Source of the DNA: Terrabacter sp. Ter38
GTDB lineage: Bacteria; Actinomycetota; Actinomycetes; Actinomycetales; Dermatophilaceae
Reading direction: 5' to 3'
Length of the DNA: 64,000 nt
NCBI RefSeq assembly: GCF_024519435.1
Contig: NZ_JALJRZ010000001.1
Location: forward strand, 186,001-250,000
A model generated the notes under the pieces. It did no database searches. It had not been told where the DNA came from and saw nothing but the letters and a program-made list of their open reading frames with translations. Positions 1,434 through 12,637 of the stretch are shown one piece after another; position 1 is the first letter of the stretch, and every line of letters starts with the position of its first letter. The position numbers were made by a program, and so were the translations under genes.

Positions 1434-3203
1434 TCAGTCCTCACGCTTCTGGGTGCTGGCGGTGGCCTTCTCGGAACCGGCCACGTCGGCCGGCCCCATG
1501 ACCTGGACGAGGGTGCCCTGGTCGGCGACGGGAGCGACACCCGTTGCGGACTCGGGGTGGTGCAGGTCGAACGCGGGGCGCTCGGACCGGATGCGTGGCA
1601 GCGACGTGAAGTTGTGCCGGGGCGGCGGGCACGAGGTGGCCCACTCGAGCGACGCGCCGTAGCCCCACGGGTCGTCGGACTCGACGAGCGGCGCCGTGCG
1701 CCACGTCTTCCAGACGTTGTAGACGAACGGGATCATCGAGGCACCGAGCAGGAACGCGCCCACGCTCGAGACGATGTTCGCGAGCTGGAAGCCCTCCTCG
1801 GGCAGGTAGTCGGCGTAGCGACGGGCCATGCCCTCGACTCCGAGCCAGTGCTGGATGAGGAACGTCATGTGGAAGCCGATGAAGAGCATCCAGAAGTGGA
1901 TCTTGCCGAGCGTCTCGTCGAGCATCCGGCCGGTCAGCTTGGGCCACCAGAAGTAGTAGCCGGAGAACATCGCGAAGACGACGGTGCCGAAGACGGTGTA
2001 GTGGAAGTGCGCGACGACGAAGTAGCTGTCGGACAGGTGGAAGTCGAGCGCCGGGCTGGACAGGATGATGCCCGTCAGACCACCGAAGAGGAACGTGACG
2101 AGGAAGCCCATCGCCCACAGCATCGGCGTGGCCATGACGACCTTGCCGCCCCACATGGTGCCGATCCAGTTGAAGAACTTCACGCCCGTCGGCACGGCGA
2201 TGAGCATCGTCATGACCGCGAAGAACGGGAGCAGCACCTGCCCGGTGACGTACATGTGGTGGGCCCAGACGCTCGCCGACAGTGCCGCGATGGCGATCGT
2301 CGCGAAGACGAGGGTCTTGTAGCCGAAGATCGGCTTGCGCGAGAAGACCGGCAGCACCTCGCTGATGATGCCGAAGAACGGCAGCGCGATGATGTAGACC
2401 TCCGGGTGCCCGAAGAACCAGAACAGGTGCTGCCAGAGCATGGCCCCACCGTTCTCGGCATCGAAGATGTGCATCCCGAAGCGCCGGTCACCACCGAGGG
2501 CGAAGAGCGCAGCAGCGAGGATCGGGAACACGAGGATCGCGAGCAGCGAGGTGATGAGCACGGTCCACGTGAAGATCGGCATGCGGAACATCGTCATGCC
2601 GGGCGCGCGCAGGCAGATGATCGTCGTGATGAAGTTGACGGCACCGAGGATCGTGCCGAAACCGGCGAGCGCGAGACCGAAGACCCACAGGTCACCGCCG
2701 ACGCCGGGCGAGTAGCTGACGTCGGACAGCGGCGCATAGGCGAACCAGCCGAACGCGGCAGCGCCCTGGGGCGTCAGGAAGCCGATGGACGCGATGAGGC
2801 CACCGAAGAGGTAGAGCCAGTACGCGAACATGTTGAGGCGCGGGAACGCGACGTCGGGCGCACCGATCTGCAGCGGCATGACGGCGTTGGCGAAGCCGGC
2901 GAAGAGCGGCGTCGCGAAGAGCAGCAGCATGATCGTGCCGTGCATCGTGAAGAGCTGGTTGTACTGCTCGGGGTTGTCGACGATCTGCAGGCCCGGGGCC
3001 ATCAGCTCGGCGCGGATGAGCAGCGCCATGAGGCCGCCGAGCAGGAAGAAGACGAACGAGGTGATGAAGTAGAGGTTGCCGATGACCTTGTGGTCGGTCG
3101 TCGTGACCCACTTGACGAAGGTCTGGCCCTTGGCCAGCCGCGGCCGGGCCGCGGCCGTCATGCTCGGGGCCTGCGCCTCACGGTTGTACGTTGCGGAGGT
3201 CAT
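1434..3203 (-). CDS. ctaD: Cytochrome c oxidase subunit I
   Basis: Catalytic subunit of the aa3-type terminal oxidase, which reduces oxygen to water and pumps protons. The 589 residues span about 12 helices. Visible ligands include the low-spin heme His in HGTIMLLLF, the CuB His-Tyr pair in [12 protein letters not shown], the His-His pair in WAHHMYVTG, and the heme pair in HFHYTVFG. The ATG (3201-3203) overlaps the ctaC stop by one base, so translation is likely coupled. An open frame continues upstream to 3665, but that part lies antisense-like over ctaC and has no family similarity; the chosen start MTSATYN gives the usual length. Confidence 0.97.
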
Positions 3204-4129
3204 CAGTTGCTCCCAGTGCGAGCCGGTGCGGGGATCTTGTCGATGTCGGCCTGGACCATCTTCTCGCGGCTCACGTCGACCGGGATGAGGCCCTCCTGGC
3301 CGATGGCCTTGAGGTGGGCCATCTCCTGGTCGAACTCGGCCTGCGGGACGACCTTGACCATGAAGAGCATCTGCGAGTGGTAGGCCCCGCAGAGCTCGGC
3401 GCACTTGCCCTGGAACGTGCCGACCTGGGTGGGCGTCAGCTGGAACTTGTTCGTCTTGCCGGGGAGCATGTCCATCTTCATCATGAAGGCCGGCACCCAG
3501 AAGCTGTGGATCACGTCGCGGGCGTTGAGGACGAACTCGACGCGCTTGTTGACCGGCAGGTAGAGCACGGGCATCTGCGCGCGCTTGCCCTCGGTGCCGT
3601 CGAGCTCGGTGTGGACGCCGGTCTCGTGGACGTTGGAGTCGACGTAGTTGAAGTCCCAGCTCCACTGCTTGGCGACGACGCTGACCGTGAGGTCCTTCTT
3701 CGTGCTCGTGTCGACGAGCCTGGCCTCGTCACGCGCGGTGTAGTAGAAGAAGACGGCCACCATGAACACGGGGATGATCGTGTAGAGCATCTCCATCGGG
3801 ACGTTGTAGCGCAGCTGGACGGGGAGCGTCTCGTCGCCCTTGCGCTTGCGGAAGCGGACGGCGGCGTAGAGCATCAGGCCCCACGTGACGGCGCCCACGG
3901 CGAGCACGGCGATCCAGCTGCCGATCCACAGGTCGGTCACCCGCTGGCCGGTGTCGGAAACCACAGGGGGCAGGTATCCGTTGGACACGTGTCCCTGGCA
4001 GCCGCTGAGGGCCAGCGCCGCGACGCCGGCGATCCCGGCGATGCGCAGACCCGTGCGTCGCCGCCCGGTCGGACCTACCACCGTCGTCGCCACCGGCGAC
4101 GCCGCTGGGGTGTCTTCGAGCTCAGGCAC
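3203..4129 (-). CDS. ctaC: Cytochrome c oxidase subunit II
   Basis: Takes electrons from the cytochrome cc of the bcc complex into the CuA centre. The CuA motif [12 protein letters not shown] and the upstream ligand in [10 protein letters not shown] are intact. The N-terminus has a lipobox (LSGC), so the mature protein is probably a lipoprotein, followed by two transmembrane helices and the cupredoxin domain. The start is uncertain: an open frame reaches 4243, but GTG at 4127-4129 has AAAGG seven bases upstream and gives a sensible 308 residues. It is first gene of ctaC-ctaD-ctaF and is divergent from the cysteine desulfurase-like gene. Confidence 0.93.
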
Positions 4130-4274
4130 CAGGTGCACCTTTCGTTCCGTACGTGGGCGCGCAGGGCGCGCGTCGAACCTGTTCACGTCAAACCGTCTGG
4201 GCGTCAAAGGCCCACGGCGCAACCCTACCGTCCCTCTCGTCACGCTGTCCGCAGGGGGCGGCTAACGTTGCGGA

Positions 4275-5582
4275 GTGGTCAGTCACGATCCGGGCACGAA
4301 CGTTGGACCCCCTCAGTCAGCCCCTTCGGCGGGCTCCCAGCGGGTGTCCGGCGGGCTCCCCGACGATGGTCAGCACGACCTCGAGACGGCATCCGTGTCG
4401 ACGGTCGTGCCGACCCGGTCACCGGGTGTGCGGCGGCTGCTCGACGCCTCGTCCGGCCCGATGCACCCCGTCGCACGCGACACCCTGCGGGCCGCGGTCG
4501 AGGTCGGCTGGGCCGATCCCGCCCGCCTGCACGCCGAGGGCCGCCGGGCCCGGGCCCTGCTCGACCGCTCCCGCGAGGTCGTCGCCGCCGGTCTGGGGGT
4601 GCGCCCCTCCGAGGTGAGCTTCCTGCCCAGCGGGCCGACCGCGCTGGCCCGGGCCGTCGACGGGGTGGCGTATGCCGCCCGCCGACGCGGGGCGCGCACC
4701 GTGGCCTCCGCGGTGGAGCACTCCGCAGTACTCGTGCCGGGACGGGCCCGGGCGTCCGCGGGCGACGACGCGTCCCTGTTCGCGGAGGTCACCGTCGACC
4801 CGCTGGGGCGGGTCGACCTCGACGCGTGGCGGAGCGCCCTCGCGGTGCCCGGCACCGTCGTCGCGGCGTTGCAGAGCGCGAACGGCGAGGTGGGTACGCG
4901 TCAGCCTCTCGCGGCGGCCCGTGACGCCGCCGCGGCGCACGGCACACCGCTCGTGGTCGACGCCACGGCGTCCCTCGGACGCGACGACGTGCCTACGGAC
5001 TGGGACGTCCTCGTCGGTGACGCACGATCGTGGGGCGGACCGCCGCTCGGTGTCCTCGTCGTCCGCGACGGCGTGCGCTGGCACTGGTCCGAGGCCCGCG
5101 CCGACGTCGAGCACGGCCGCACGGACGTCACGCCGTGGGTGCCACTGGCCCTGGCCGCGGCCGAGGCGTGGCAGCAGACGACTACCACGCTGGCCGCGGA
5201 CACCCAGCTGACGCGCGCGCTCGTCGACGACATCCGGCGCGCCGCCTCGGCGGTGCCCGACACCGTCGTCGTCGGCGACCCGGACGACCGGCTCCCGCAC
5301 GTCGTCACCTTCTCCAGCCTCTACGTCGACGGCGAGTCCGTCGTCGGCGCCTTCGACACGGCCGGCTTCGCCGTCGCGAGCGGGTCGGCCTGCACGTCGA
5401 GCACGCTGGAGCCGAGCCACGTACTCGCGGCGATGGGAGTCCTGACCCACGGCAACGTGCGGGTCACCCTGCCGCTGCCCGCGGTCTCCCCCGCCCTCGC
5501 CGACGACGTGAGCGCCTTCACGGCCGCCCTCGCCCCGACCGTCCGCGCCGTGCGCGACCAGCTCGGGGTCGGTGACCTGTGA
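4275..5582 (+). CDS. Cysteine desulfurase-like protein lacking the PLP lysine
   Basis: A 435-residue class V aminotransferase-fold protein. Family landmarks are present: VEHSAVLVPG (PLP-stacking His), SANGEVGT, VDATASLG (Asp), and the mobile-loop cysteine in ASGSACTSSTLEPSH (Cys373). However, where IscS/NifS proteins have SAHK before GGP, this one reads DARS at residues 249-252, so the Schiff-base lysine is Ser252. Spacing from there to Cys373 (121 residues) fits IscS (122). It probably cannot hold PLP covalently but keeps the persulfide cysteine. It overlaps the TusA gene by 4 nt. The GTG follows TAACGT by 6 nt, suggesting a leaderless transcript. Function is unknown; a sulfur carrier or scaffold is inference. 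Confidence 0.85.
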   Translation: MVSHDPGTNVGPPQSAPSAGSQRVSGGLPDDGQHDLETASVSTVVPTRSPGVRRLLDASSGPMHPVARDTLRAAVEVGWADPARLHAEGRRARALLDRSREVVAAGLGVRPSEVSFLPSGPTALARAVDGVAYAARRRGARTVASAVEHSAVLVPGRARASAGDDASLFAEVTVDPLGRVDLDAWRSALAVPGTVVAALQSANGEVGTRQPLAAARDAAAAHGTPLVVDATASLGRDDVPTDWDVLVGDARSWGGPPLGVLVVRDGVRWHWSEARADVEHGRTDVTPWVPLALAAAEAWQQTTTTLAADTQLTRALVDDIRRAASAVPDTVVVGDPDDRLPHVVTFSSLYVDGESVVGAFDTAGFAVASGSACTSSTLEPSHVLAAMGVLTHGNVRVTLPLPAVSPALADDVSAFTAALAPTVRAVRDQLGVGDL

Positions 5583-5836
5583 CCGACGACCCGTCGGTCG
5601 TCGACGCGCGCGGCGAACGCTGCCCCCTGCCGGTCATCAGGCTCGCCCGCCTCGTCCGCGACCGGCCGGACCTCGCGACCGTCACGGTCCTGGCGACCGA
5701 CCCCGCCGCCGCCCACGACGTTCCGGCCTGGTGCCGGATGCGCGGCCACCGCTTCGTCGAGGCGCGCGCGGAGGGCGACCACACGGCATACGTCGTCGAG
5801 GTGGTCAGCCCCAGCGCGCCGGAAGGGGGGCGCTGA
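5579..5836 (+). CDS. TusA-family sulfur carrier protein
   Basis: An 85-residue protein with the TusA signature: VDARGERCPLPVIRLAR contains the CPxP active-site cysteine, followed by a beta-alpha pattern and a second Cys in DVPAWCRMRGH. TusA proteins relay persulfide sulfur between partners. Its GTG overlaps the stop of the preceding desulfurase-like gene by 4 nt, so the two are very likely made together. In some other actinobacteria annotations the two domains occur as one fused protein. The 3' end overlaps the convergent aat gene by 32 nt. Confidence 0.88.
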   Translation: MTDDPSVVDARGERCPLPVIRLARLVRDRPDLATVTVLATDPAAAHDVPAWCRMRGHRFVEARAEGDHTAYVVEVVSPSAPEGGR

Positions 5837-7667: not shown

Positions 7668-8045
7668 TCAGCTGAAGGAGTCGCCGCAGGCGCAGCTGCT
7701 GCCCGCGTTGGGGTTGTCGATGGTGAAGCCCTGCTTCTCGATCGTGTCGGCGAAGTCGATCGTGGCGCCCTCGAGGTAGGGGGAGCTCATGCGGTCGACG
7801 ACGACCTCGACACCGTCGAAGTCGCGGACGAGGTCACCGTCGAGGCTGCGCTCGTCGAAGTAGAGCTGGTAGATCAGGCCCGAGCATCCGCCGGGCTGGA
7901 CACCGACGCGCAGGCGGAGGTCGTCACGACCCTCCTGCTCGAGCAGGCTCTTGACCTTCGTGGCCGCGACGTCCGTCAGGACGACACCGTGGGCGGGAGC
8001 CTCGGTCTGAACCTCGGCGGGAGATGCGTTCGTCTCGACACTCAT
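7668..8045 (-). CDS. erpA: Iron-sulfur cluster insertion protein ErpA
   Basis: A-type Fe-S carrier of 125 residues. The three cluster cysteines are visible: one in QPGGCSGLIYQL and two in SSCACGDSF at the C-terminus. It passes clusters to client enzymes; likely clients here include LipA and NadA, an inference from their cofactor needs. An open frame extends upstream to 8138, but ATG at 8043-8045 has AAGGA eight bases before it and matches family length. It is followed by a strong terminator. Position between adoK and the glycerate kinase matches M. tuberculosis Rv2204c. Confidence 0.93.
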   Translation of the reverse strand: MSVETNASPAEVQTEAPAHGVVLTDVAATKVKSLLEQEGRDDLRLRVGVQPGGCSGLIYQLYFDERSLDGDLVRDFDGVEVVVDRMSSPYLEGATIDFADTIEKQGFTIDNPNAGSSCACGDSFS

Positions 8046-8174
8046 GTGTTGGTCCTTCACGTCGTGGAGCATGGGTCGGAAGAGAGAACCCATGCCGCGC
8101 CGGATGTGTTCCCGACGTGTCCAAGGATACGTCGCCACGTCGTCGAATCGTGCATCCTCCCCCCGTCCGGCGGC

Positions 8175-11347: not shown

Positions 11348-11381
11348 AGCGTCAGACATCAAGTCCACTTGAGGTCAAGTG
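11348..11381 (-). promoter_or_regulatory. SoxR/MerR-like operator-promoter of the SDR-queA operon
   Basis: On the minus strand TTGACC (-35, 11373-11378) and GACGCT (-10, 11348-11353) are separated by 19 bp, the long spacing typical of MerR-family promoters. The spacer holds TCAAGT-CC-ACTTGA (11359-11372), close to the SoxR consensus CCTCAAGTTAACTTGAGG. A second overlapping palindrome, CACTTGA-GG-TCAAGTG, spans 11366-11381. No MerR-family gene is in the window. Confidence 0.6.
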
Positions 11382-11422
11382 CCCGAACGCTGGGAGCCCA
11401 CCCGGCGGCATACGATCTGCAC

Positions 11423-12637
11423 ATGACGACCGACACGGCATCGGCCCCGGCTCCCCTCCCCCTCCTCGTGCTCGGGCAGGGCACCGACCTGCACACCGAG
11501 CGCGGCGTCGAGTGCCCGGGTGACCTGCCGGCCGCGTCCGACCCCGACCTCGTCGAGCGGGCGCGCGCCGCCAAGGCCGCCCTCGGGGACCGCGTGTTCG
11601 TCCTGGGGCACCACTACCAGCGCGACGAGGTCATCGAGTACGCCGACGTCACCGGTGACTCGTTCAAGCTCGCCCGCGACGCGGCCGCCCGGCCCGACGC
11701 GCCCTACATCGTCTTCTGCGGCGTGCACTTCATGGCCGAGTCCGCCGACATCCTCACGAGCGACCAGCAGACCGTGATCCTGCCCGACCTCGCCGCCGGC
11801 TGCTCGATGGCCGACATGGCCGCGATCGCCCAGGTCGAGGACTGCTGGGAGCAGCTGACCGCTGCCGGCGTCGCCGAGCAGACGATCCCGGTCACCTACA
11901 TGAACTCCGCCGCCGCGATCAAGGCCTTCACCGGCCGGCACGGCGGCACCATCTGCACGAGCTCCAACGCCCGCACCGCCCTCGACTGGGCCTTCGAGCA
12001 GGTCGGCGGCGTCGGCTCGGACGGAACCGGCACGGGCAAGGTGCTCTTCCTGCCCGACCAGCACCTCGGCCGCAACACCGCGGTCCGCGAGCTCGGCCTG
12101 TCGCTCGACGACTGCGTCGTCTGGGACCCGCACCGCCCGAACGGCGGCCTGACCCGTGAGCAGCTCGAGAACGCCCGGATGATCCTCTGGCGCGGGCACT
12201 GCTCCGTGCACGGCCGCTTCTCGGTCGACGCCGTCGACGCCGCCCGTCGCGAGATCCCTGGCGTCAAGGTCATCGTCCACCCCGAGTGCCAGTACGAGGT
12301 CGTCGAGCGGGCCGACGAGGTCGGCTCGACCGAGAAGATCATCCAGACGATCGCCGCCGCCCCGGCCGGCACGTCGTGGGTCGTCGGCACCGAGCTCAAC
12401 CTCGTACGCCGCCTCGCCCAGCAGTTCCCCGAGCAGCGGATCGCCTTCCTGGAGAAGAACGTCTGCTACTGCTCGACGATGAACCGCATCGACCTCCCGC
12501 ACCTCGTGTGGGCCCTCGAGTCCCTCGTGGAGGGTCGGGTCGTCAACCCCATCCACGTCGACCCGACCGTCGCCGCCGAGGCCCGCGCGGCCCTCGACCG
12601 CATGCTCGCCCTGCCCGGCACGACCCACAAGGACTGA
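11423..12637 (+). CDS. nadA: Quinolinate synthase
   Basis: Condenses iminoaspartate with dihydroxyacetone phosphate to quinolinate in NAD synthesis, using a [4Fe-4S] cluster. The 404 residues include GHHYQRDEVIEYADVTGDS, CGVHFMAESADILT and KNVCYCSTM, with cysteines in each of the three repeats. nadB and nadC, often adjacent in actinobacteria, are not in the window. An open frame begins at 11369, but ATG at 11423 sits 6 nt after TACGAT, a leaderless arrangement; that -10 overlaps a GGCATAC motif. The downstream phosphoesterase starts 6 nt after the stop. Confidence 0.96.
   Translation: MTTDTASAPAPLPLLVLGQGTDLHTERGVECPGDLPAASDPDLVERARAAKAALGDRVFVLGHHYQRDEVIEYADVTGDSFKLARDAAARPDAPYIVFCGVHFMAESADILTSDQQTVILPDLAAGCSMADMAAIAQVEDCWEQLTAAGVAEQTIPVTYMNSAAAIKAFTGRHGGTICTSSNARTALDWAFEQVGGVGSDGTGTGKVLFLPDQHLGRNTAVRELGLSLDDCVVWDPHRPNGGLTREQLENARMILWRGHCSVHGRFSVDAVDAARREIPGVKVIVHPECQYEVVERADEVGSTEKIIQTIAAAPAGTSWVVGTELNLVRRLAQQFPEQRIAFLEKNVCYCSTMNRIDLPHLVWALESLVEGRVVNPIHVDPTVAAEARAALDRMLALPGTTHKD

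Follow-up and report, generated by a model that had tools for sequence, protein, structure and literature searches.

What can a cysteine desulfurase homologue do when the lysine of its PLP site is absent and the persulfide-type cysteine of its mobile loop is present? A gene encoding such a protein lies beside tusA in the window (the whole stretch of 64,000 nucleotides from Terrabacter sp. Ter38 that was analysed; Table 1). In cysteine desulfurases the loop persulfide and the PLP chemistry are usually investigated together, as parts of a single machine, and natural loss of the PLP half alone is a clean test of whether the loop cysteine and TusA function without desulfuration. Judging from the sequences, the protein is not a PLP-dependent desulfurase and most likely works like the persulfide-transfer half of IscS-TusA. 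The reading that we favour, with some reserve, is that a former PLP-dependent desulfurase has turned into a cofactor-free partner of TusA and would act as a persulfide relay via Cys373.

Table 1. Genes of the locus and codons of the desulfurase homologue (positions in the window)
Feature	Positions	Strand	Basis
Lysine-less class V cysteine desulfurase homologue, 435 aa	4275..5582	+	ORF, GTG start
Codons G120-P121, IscS Ala75-Thr76 (PLP phosphate contacts); Thr lost	4632..4637	+	alignment
Codon H149, IscS His104 (stacks on PLP); His kept	4719..4721	+	alignment
Codon D229, IscS Asp180 (PLP N1 contact)	4959..4961	+	alignment
Codon D249, IscS Ser203 (PLP phosphate contact)	5019..5021	+	alignment
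Codon S252 (TCG) at the PLP-lysine position, IscS Lys206, within DARSWGGP	5028..5030	+	alignment to E. coli IscS
Codon C373 (TGC), mobile-loop persulfide-type cysteine, IscS Cys328, within GSACTSS	5391..5393	+	alignment
Codon R396, IscS Arg354 (substrate carboxylate)	5460..5462	+	alignment
TusA sulfurtransferase, 85 aa; CPLP cysteine codon 5621-5623	5579..5836	+	ORF, PF01206
ctaC, cytochrome c oxidase subunit II, divergent neighbour	3203..4243	-	COX2 by Pfam
HesB/ErpA-type Fe-S protein (PF01521), often near the pair	7668..8138	-	Pfam

The protein belongs to the class V aminotransferase superfamily (PF00266, 72.4 bits against a curated cut-off of 21.5), and the closest solved structures are IscS-type desulfurases (4r5f, IscS 2, E = 6e-32). 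The NCBIfam cysteine desulfurase models yield 11 matches, every one below its cut-off; the top match, NifS (TIGR03402), scores 160.6 bits against 530.75. Among the matches listed, the closest named relatives come from Terrabacter and 'Terracoccus' strains (92-93% identity). The next homologue in the same genome is only 33% identical. At least three further class V homologues of this genome carry a lysine motif: L211 (TAHKLGGP and GSACQAG), L209 (FSGHKMYGP) and L210 (FSGHKTYAP). The conserved domain starts at about residue 51, and the preceding part shows little conservation beyond the genus. In comparisons with congeners the dN/dS ratio is 0.33-0.96 for the first ~50 codons and 0.11-0.20 for the conserved domain. 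Since the first part evolves much faster, the annotated start codon is uncertain, and translation may really begin at a GTG further downstream. The annotated GTG at 4275 is only 31 nt from the ctaC start, and the divergent promoters may be located at 4275-4420.

The short overlap with tusA (4 nt, 5579-5582), the intact CPLP motif of TusA and the divergent ctaC, all three described from the sequence alone, were confirmed. Upstream of the gene lie divergent ctaC, ctaD and ctaF (our names for the Pfam families COX2, COX1 and Cyt_c_ox_IV). The convergent genes downstream encode a leucyl/phenylalanyl-tRNA transferase, a PfkB kinase and the Fe-S biogenesis protein. TusA scores 64.4 bits with PF01206 (cut-off 28.6) and misses the NCBIfam TusA equivalog (48.5 bits against 78); it is the single PF01206 match of the genome at E <= 0.001.

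Alignment to E. coli IscS bears out the placement of Ser252 at the PLP-lysine position and of Cys373 in the mobile loop by the sequence-only reading. The alignment is secure, as that reading had held. However, the spacing of the two positions, which it had taken to be equal, is 121 residues here and 122 in IscS, the difference being due to a one-residue gap in GGPP-LG. It had also listed the pocket His, Asn and Asp as kept; this is true of His149 and Asp229, whereas Asn155 of IscS corresponds to Gly204. Gln183 is replaced by Ala232 and His205 by Arg251. Thus, four of the six PLP contacts tested (Thr76, His104, Asp180, Gln183, Ser203, His205) are replaced and only His and Asp are retained. In the DndA structure PLP is contacted by Ala69, Thr70, His99, Asp175, Ser197, His199 and Lys200 (PMC3343029; all papers are cited from excerpts of their text). 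DndA Asn150, Gln178 and Arg353 are thought to hold the substrate carboxylate, and in SspA Gln178 is bonded to PLP (PMC3343029, PMC7188994). Given the replacement of Lys206, Gln183, Ser203, His205 and Thr76, the window protein is expected to hold PLP poorly and not to desulfurate cysteine; the inference that PLP chemistry was lost has good support.

A sequencing error or frameshift is ruled out. All six congeners compared use TCG for Ser252, and this, together with the low dN/dS of the domain, indicates a conserved gene under selection. Lysine at position 206 was found in none of the 28 loci with at least 44% identity to the window protein in 58 related genomes, its own included, and it is absent from the members of the order that were read.

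The distribution of the family was studied with a profile built from 21 members, which was run against three sets of genomes, 396 from the phylum, 396 from the order and 394 from the class. At E <= 1e-90 the family is present in 102 of the 396 order genomes and in 187 of the 394 class genomes. The lysine position was read in 60 chosen regions from the order and class searches (40 in the order, 20 elsewhere in the class) and in a few returned loci; named genome contigs were also scanned, and the best 80 loci were kept. In all, 185 distinct sequences and IscS were read. On a tree of 185 sequences including IscS (L207 left out, motif columns removed) the lysine state changes four times in total, and strongly supported branches require at least two changes. 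The clade containing the window protein has lysine in 0 of its 105 members; in a 72-sequence tree, 33 sampled members of this clade group with 100/96 support. It comprises the order of the window, and its named genera include Terrabacter, Intrasporangium, Knoellia, Cellulomonas, Isoptericola and Sanguibacter. A few MAGs also belong to it, as do two records that are probably mislabelled or contaminated: a Sphaerisporangium cinnabarinum record (L102) and a Proteobacteria MAG (L112), which fall among Cellulosimicrobium- and Cellulomonas-type sequences with matching gene order. Three single lysine-less sequences lie outside the clade. L178, with Ala at position 206, stands beside Dactylosporangium (support 97/84), and L183 also has Ala. 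The third, L094 from Nocardioides sp. AX2bis, has His; this is one record, and the loss could be an error.

The loci from Kribbella, Nocardioides and Salinispora keep the lysine, as do the enzymes fused to TusA in genomes that are probably from Streptomyces. It is also kept in all 16 distant relatives from other classes of the phylum (L045-L060), seven of which have TusA within ~120 bases downstream. Hence the desulfurase-TusA pair predates the lysine loss. The lysine-bearing orthologues (Kribbella, Nocardioides, Salinispora, Catellatospora, Dactylosporangium) are 47-52% identical to the window protein over the best segment, among the matches listed, and resemble it in the ctaC locus, the cysteine loop and TusA. 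They differ in keeping Lys206, Ser203 and His104, as well as Thr76 in 56 of 58 sequences, and look like PLP enzymes. Paralogy, that is, descent of the lysine-less copy from a different desulfurase, is ruled out by the common ctaC locus and the tree. One lysine-bearing copy, from an Acidimicrobiales MAG (L134), has ctaC adjoining and groups with Catellatospora and Salinispora, presumably through transfer or mis-binning. Plasmid records contain one relative, from Nonomuraea (48.8%), with no annotated gene under the match.

The locus of ctaC, desulfurase homologue and TusA is widespread among Actinomycetes, and its gene order is very stable. In the best 80 named loci (flanks up to 6 kb, shorter at contig ends; TusA detected by tblastn) divergent ctaC lies upstream in all 52 lysine-less and all 28 lysine-bearing loci, a TusA match is found in 49 and 28 of them, and the Fe-S protein gene in 48 and 18, respectively. 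TusA with a CPxP motif is adjacent or fused in 87 of 104 lysine-less sequences (3 fused) and in 57 of 58 lysine-bearing ones. The 11 fusions among the latter all come from one genus, probably Streptomyces; in the remaining lysine-bearing sequence, L169, TusA is split across two frames. No adjacent TusA accompanies 17 of the 104 lysine-less genes, and these still keep the loop cysteine. In 14 of the genomes concerned (those of L087, L121 and L117 were left out), 12 carry PF01206 elsewhere, about half of them as weak matches, and the genome-wide search found no PF01206 match in G482 and the incomplete G463. As the cysteine is kept beside the 17 TusA-less genes, and G482 lacks PF01206, TusA is not the sole reason for its retention.

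Cys occupies the position of Cys328, and Arg that of Arg354, in all 104 lysine-less and all 58 lysine-bearing sequences. For the best 80 named loci the cysteine count is partly built in, as the scan patterns contained the loop cysteine or the PSHVLAA stretch behind it. However, among 105 sequences found without a cysteine-biased pattern the loop cysteine is present in all 57 lysine-less ones, and the motif GSAC in 56, the exception being the degenerate copy L166. The check proposed by the sequence-only reading, conservation of the serine along with the cysteine, was borne out in part: the cysteine is invariant and the serine is not. Position 206 in 109 lysine-less sequences is occupied by S (47), D (43), A (10), T (5) and four others. 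Since S, D, A, T, V, L, G and H all occur there, Ser252 as a specific new catalytic residue is ruled out.

The surface expected to receive TusA is retained as well. For the 87 TusA-bearing lysine-less sequences the mean identity to the consensus of the lysine-bearing clade is 0.92 in the docking helix and 0.91 in the cysteine loop (0.97 each in the lysine-bearing clade itself), as against 0.80 in the rest of the protein (0.94) and 0.42 at the PLP contacts (0.98). The docking helix was taken as window residues 78-104, our own choice guided by the IscS-TusA structure (PMC2854127); the fold, the dimer and the docking site are assigned by homology. Helix 2 residues W45, E49 and D52 of IscS bind TusA, and changing them abolishes binding (PMC2854127, excerpt). 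The corresponding positions in the family are occupied by Arg, by a residue that varies and mainly by Asp (87/104), respectively; W45 and E49, both needed by IscS for TusA binding, are identical in neither clade. As a check on coupling with TusA, lysine-less sequences with and without it were compared: identity is lower without TusA in the docking helix (0.92 vs 0.85), but likewise in the cysteine loop (0.91 vs 0.85) and in the rest (0.80 vs 0.73), so that the helix does not stand out.

What links the protein to TusA is adjacency, natural fusions and the conserved docking helix. A persulfide-type loop cysteine kept opposite a kept TusA site is best explained by a relay. The following scheme can be suggested. 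The ancestral pair, desulfurase and TusA divergent from ctaC, would have taken sulfur from cysteine and handed it, as a persulfide on the loop cysteine, to TusA. The ancestor of the window's order then lost the lysine and most PLP contacts, after which cysteine desulfuration would no longer be possible; the mobile loop that carries Cys373 and the helix for TusA docking were retained. Cys373 most likely still carries sulfur and hands it over to Cys15 of TusA. The incoming sulfur would already be sulfane sulfur. A candidate donor is one of the other, lysine-bearing desulfurase homologues of the genome; alternatives are a rhodanese or a small-molecule persulfide bound by the remaining Arg396 and Asp229. 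Sequence, phylogeny, gene order, purifying selection and the decay of the pocket are observed directly; the absence of PLP and of desulfurase activity, the persulfide on Cys373, its transfer to TusA, the nature of the donor and the activity of the ancestral pair are inferred from them.

The kept helix also fits a docking or regulatory subunit that forms a mixed dimer with a lysine-bearing desulfurase. An analogy is serine palmitoyltransferase, an obligate heterodimer of a lysine-less LCB1-type and a lysine-bearing subunit. The LCB1-type subunit is likewise a fold-type I homologue without the PLP lysine; the difference is that it works in an obligate heterodimer. Class V homologues with the lysine motif are available in the genome as partners (at least L211, L209 and L210). 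When IscS binds TusA, one subunit provides the large domain on which TusA rests, with contacts on helix 2, and the opposite subunit supplies Cys328 (PMC2854127, excerpt), so a mixed dimer could work. However, the nearest other homologue in the genome is only 33% identical, the ancestor was presumably a homodimer, and the protein's own cysteine loop, needless for a mere dock, is nearly as conserved as in the lysine-bearing clade. We consider this possibility unlikely.

The decay of the PLP pocket is directly seen when 104 lysine-less and 58 lysine-bearing sequences, both sets picked by residue 206, are aligned to IscS. Ser203 is kept in 6/104 lysine-less vs 58/58 lysine-bearing sequences, His104 in 47/104 vs 58/58 (Arg or Gln in the other 57), Thr76 in 37/104 vs 56/58, His205 in at most 2/104 vs 50/58 and Gln183 in 0/104 vs 30/58. 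Asp180 is invariant in both sets. Among 91 sites conserved at 95% or more in the lysine-bearing sequences, conservation in the lysine-less ones falls below 60% at five of the seven PLP or substrate contacts vs seven of the 84 other sites (Fisher p = 3e-4, a guide only, given the relatedness of the sequences and the inclusion of Lys206 among the five). Part of the change predates the lysine loss, since the lysine-bearing clade already departs from canonical desulfurases, with His at Asn155 and a variable Gln183; for the same reason the desulfurase activity of that clade is an assumption.

Several acidic residues are of note: Asp replaces Ser203 in 85 of 104 lysine-less sequences and Lys206 in 42 of 104, Asp180 is invariant, and D244 of the window protein is conserved as Asp among lysine-less sequences only. 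One possibility, to which we assign a low probability, is that the old PLP pocket now binds a metal or some other cation and that Cys373, instead of carrying a persulfide, serves as a ligand or has a redox or sensor role. The neighbouring cytochrome oxidase and Fe-S protein genes and the retention of the cysteine in the absence of TusA are consistent with this. However, all 42 sequences with Asp206 have Arg at position 104, which is more simply explained by a salt bridge in an empty pocket, the loop retains its desulfurase character, and TusA accompanies most members. The Arg104-Asp206 pair may thus fill the empty cofactor site; it may represent one evolutionary event, since its 42 sequences form one part of the tree. 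The invariance of Asp180 and Arg354 might reflect a small ligand that still binds in the pocket.

Of the two functions proposed by the sequence-only reading, the best supported is that of a persulfide scaffold that serves TusA without PLP, given the decayed pocket, the retained loop, Arg and helix, and TusA adjacent in 87 of 104 cases. The other, non-covalent binding of PLP with slow desulfuration of cysteine, is disfavoured by the Asp at Ser203 (85/104) and the loss of the stacking His104 (57/104). It is less disfavoured for the window protein itself, which retains His149, Asp229 and Arg396, and even there we regard it as very improbable. The K206A variant of IscS retains some PLP and its authors considered a very slow partial reaction possible; however, no desulfurase activity was measured for it, and neither H104Q nor Q183E is active (PMC9978102, excerpt). 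In the window protein the substitutions Gln183 to Ala, Ser203 to Asp, His205 to Arg and Thr76 to Pro are added to the missing lysine. Finally, a decaying gene heading for loss, which might be suspected from the 17 sequences without adjacent TusA and from the degenerate L166, deserves hardly any credence in view of the congener dN/dS of 0.11-0.20 and the loop cysteine in all 104 sequences counted.

As a wider and more tentative proposal, it is possible that PLP was discarded throughout the order, and probably separately elsewhere, and that a cofactor-free relay feeds TusA with sulfur from a source other than cysteine, the pocket being filled by side chains or reused for a small-molecule persulfide. 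This raises the question of the source of sulfane sulfur in these actinobacteria. The similarity-based name "cysteine desulfurase" is probably wrong for these proteins, and the data point to a very conserved, unexplained sulfur-transfer locus beside the cytochrome oxidase genes.

The closest model is the E. coli IscS-TusA system, which shares the class V fold (by sequence), the mobile-loop cysteine, TusA as acceptor and the docking site on helix 2 (PMC2854127, excerpt). It differs in having the PLP lysine, an intact pocket and isc genes as neighbours; relative to it the window protein has Lys206, Ser203, Gln183, Asn155, His205 and Thr76 all replaced. A lysine-less desulfurase relative is already in print. 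Rv3778c of M. tuberculosis, a distant relative of desulfurases and selenocysteine lyases, lacks the PLP lysine and is likely noncatalytic (PMC12910592, excerpt); the excerpt does not mention a link to TusA. The excerpt of a review (PMC8300815) names no lysine-less desulfurase, and among the papers listed from the openly licensed literature none deals with the pair of desulfurase and TusA in actinobacteria, whether the lysine is present or absent.

Several further observations concern TusA and its possible clients. Genome G575 has two copies of the family, L165 and L166; in L166 the cysteine loop is degenerate (GCGCTC) and the TusA that follows has no CPxP motif, so that both ends of the pair have changed together. 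Elsewhere in G044, G468, G717, G736, G745, G453, G707, G806 and G575 a TusA domain lies within open frames of ~750-910 codons, which suggests a multidomain sulfur protein, possibly a reductase-rhodanese-TusA fusion, although this is our guess. The gene nadA, encoding the Fe-S enzyme quinolinate synthase, occupies positions 11369-12637 of the window and occurs in the flanks of 37 of the 52 lysine-less and 13 of the 28 lysine-bearing loci among the best 80 named loci; its product is a possible client of the ancestral desulfurase-TusA pair.
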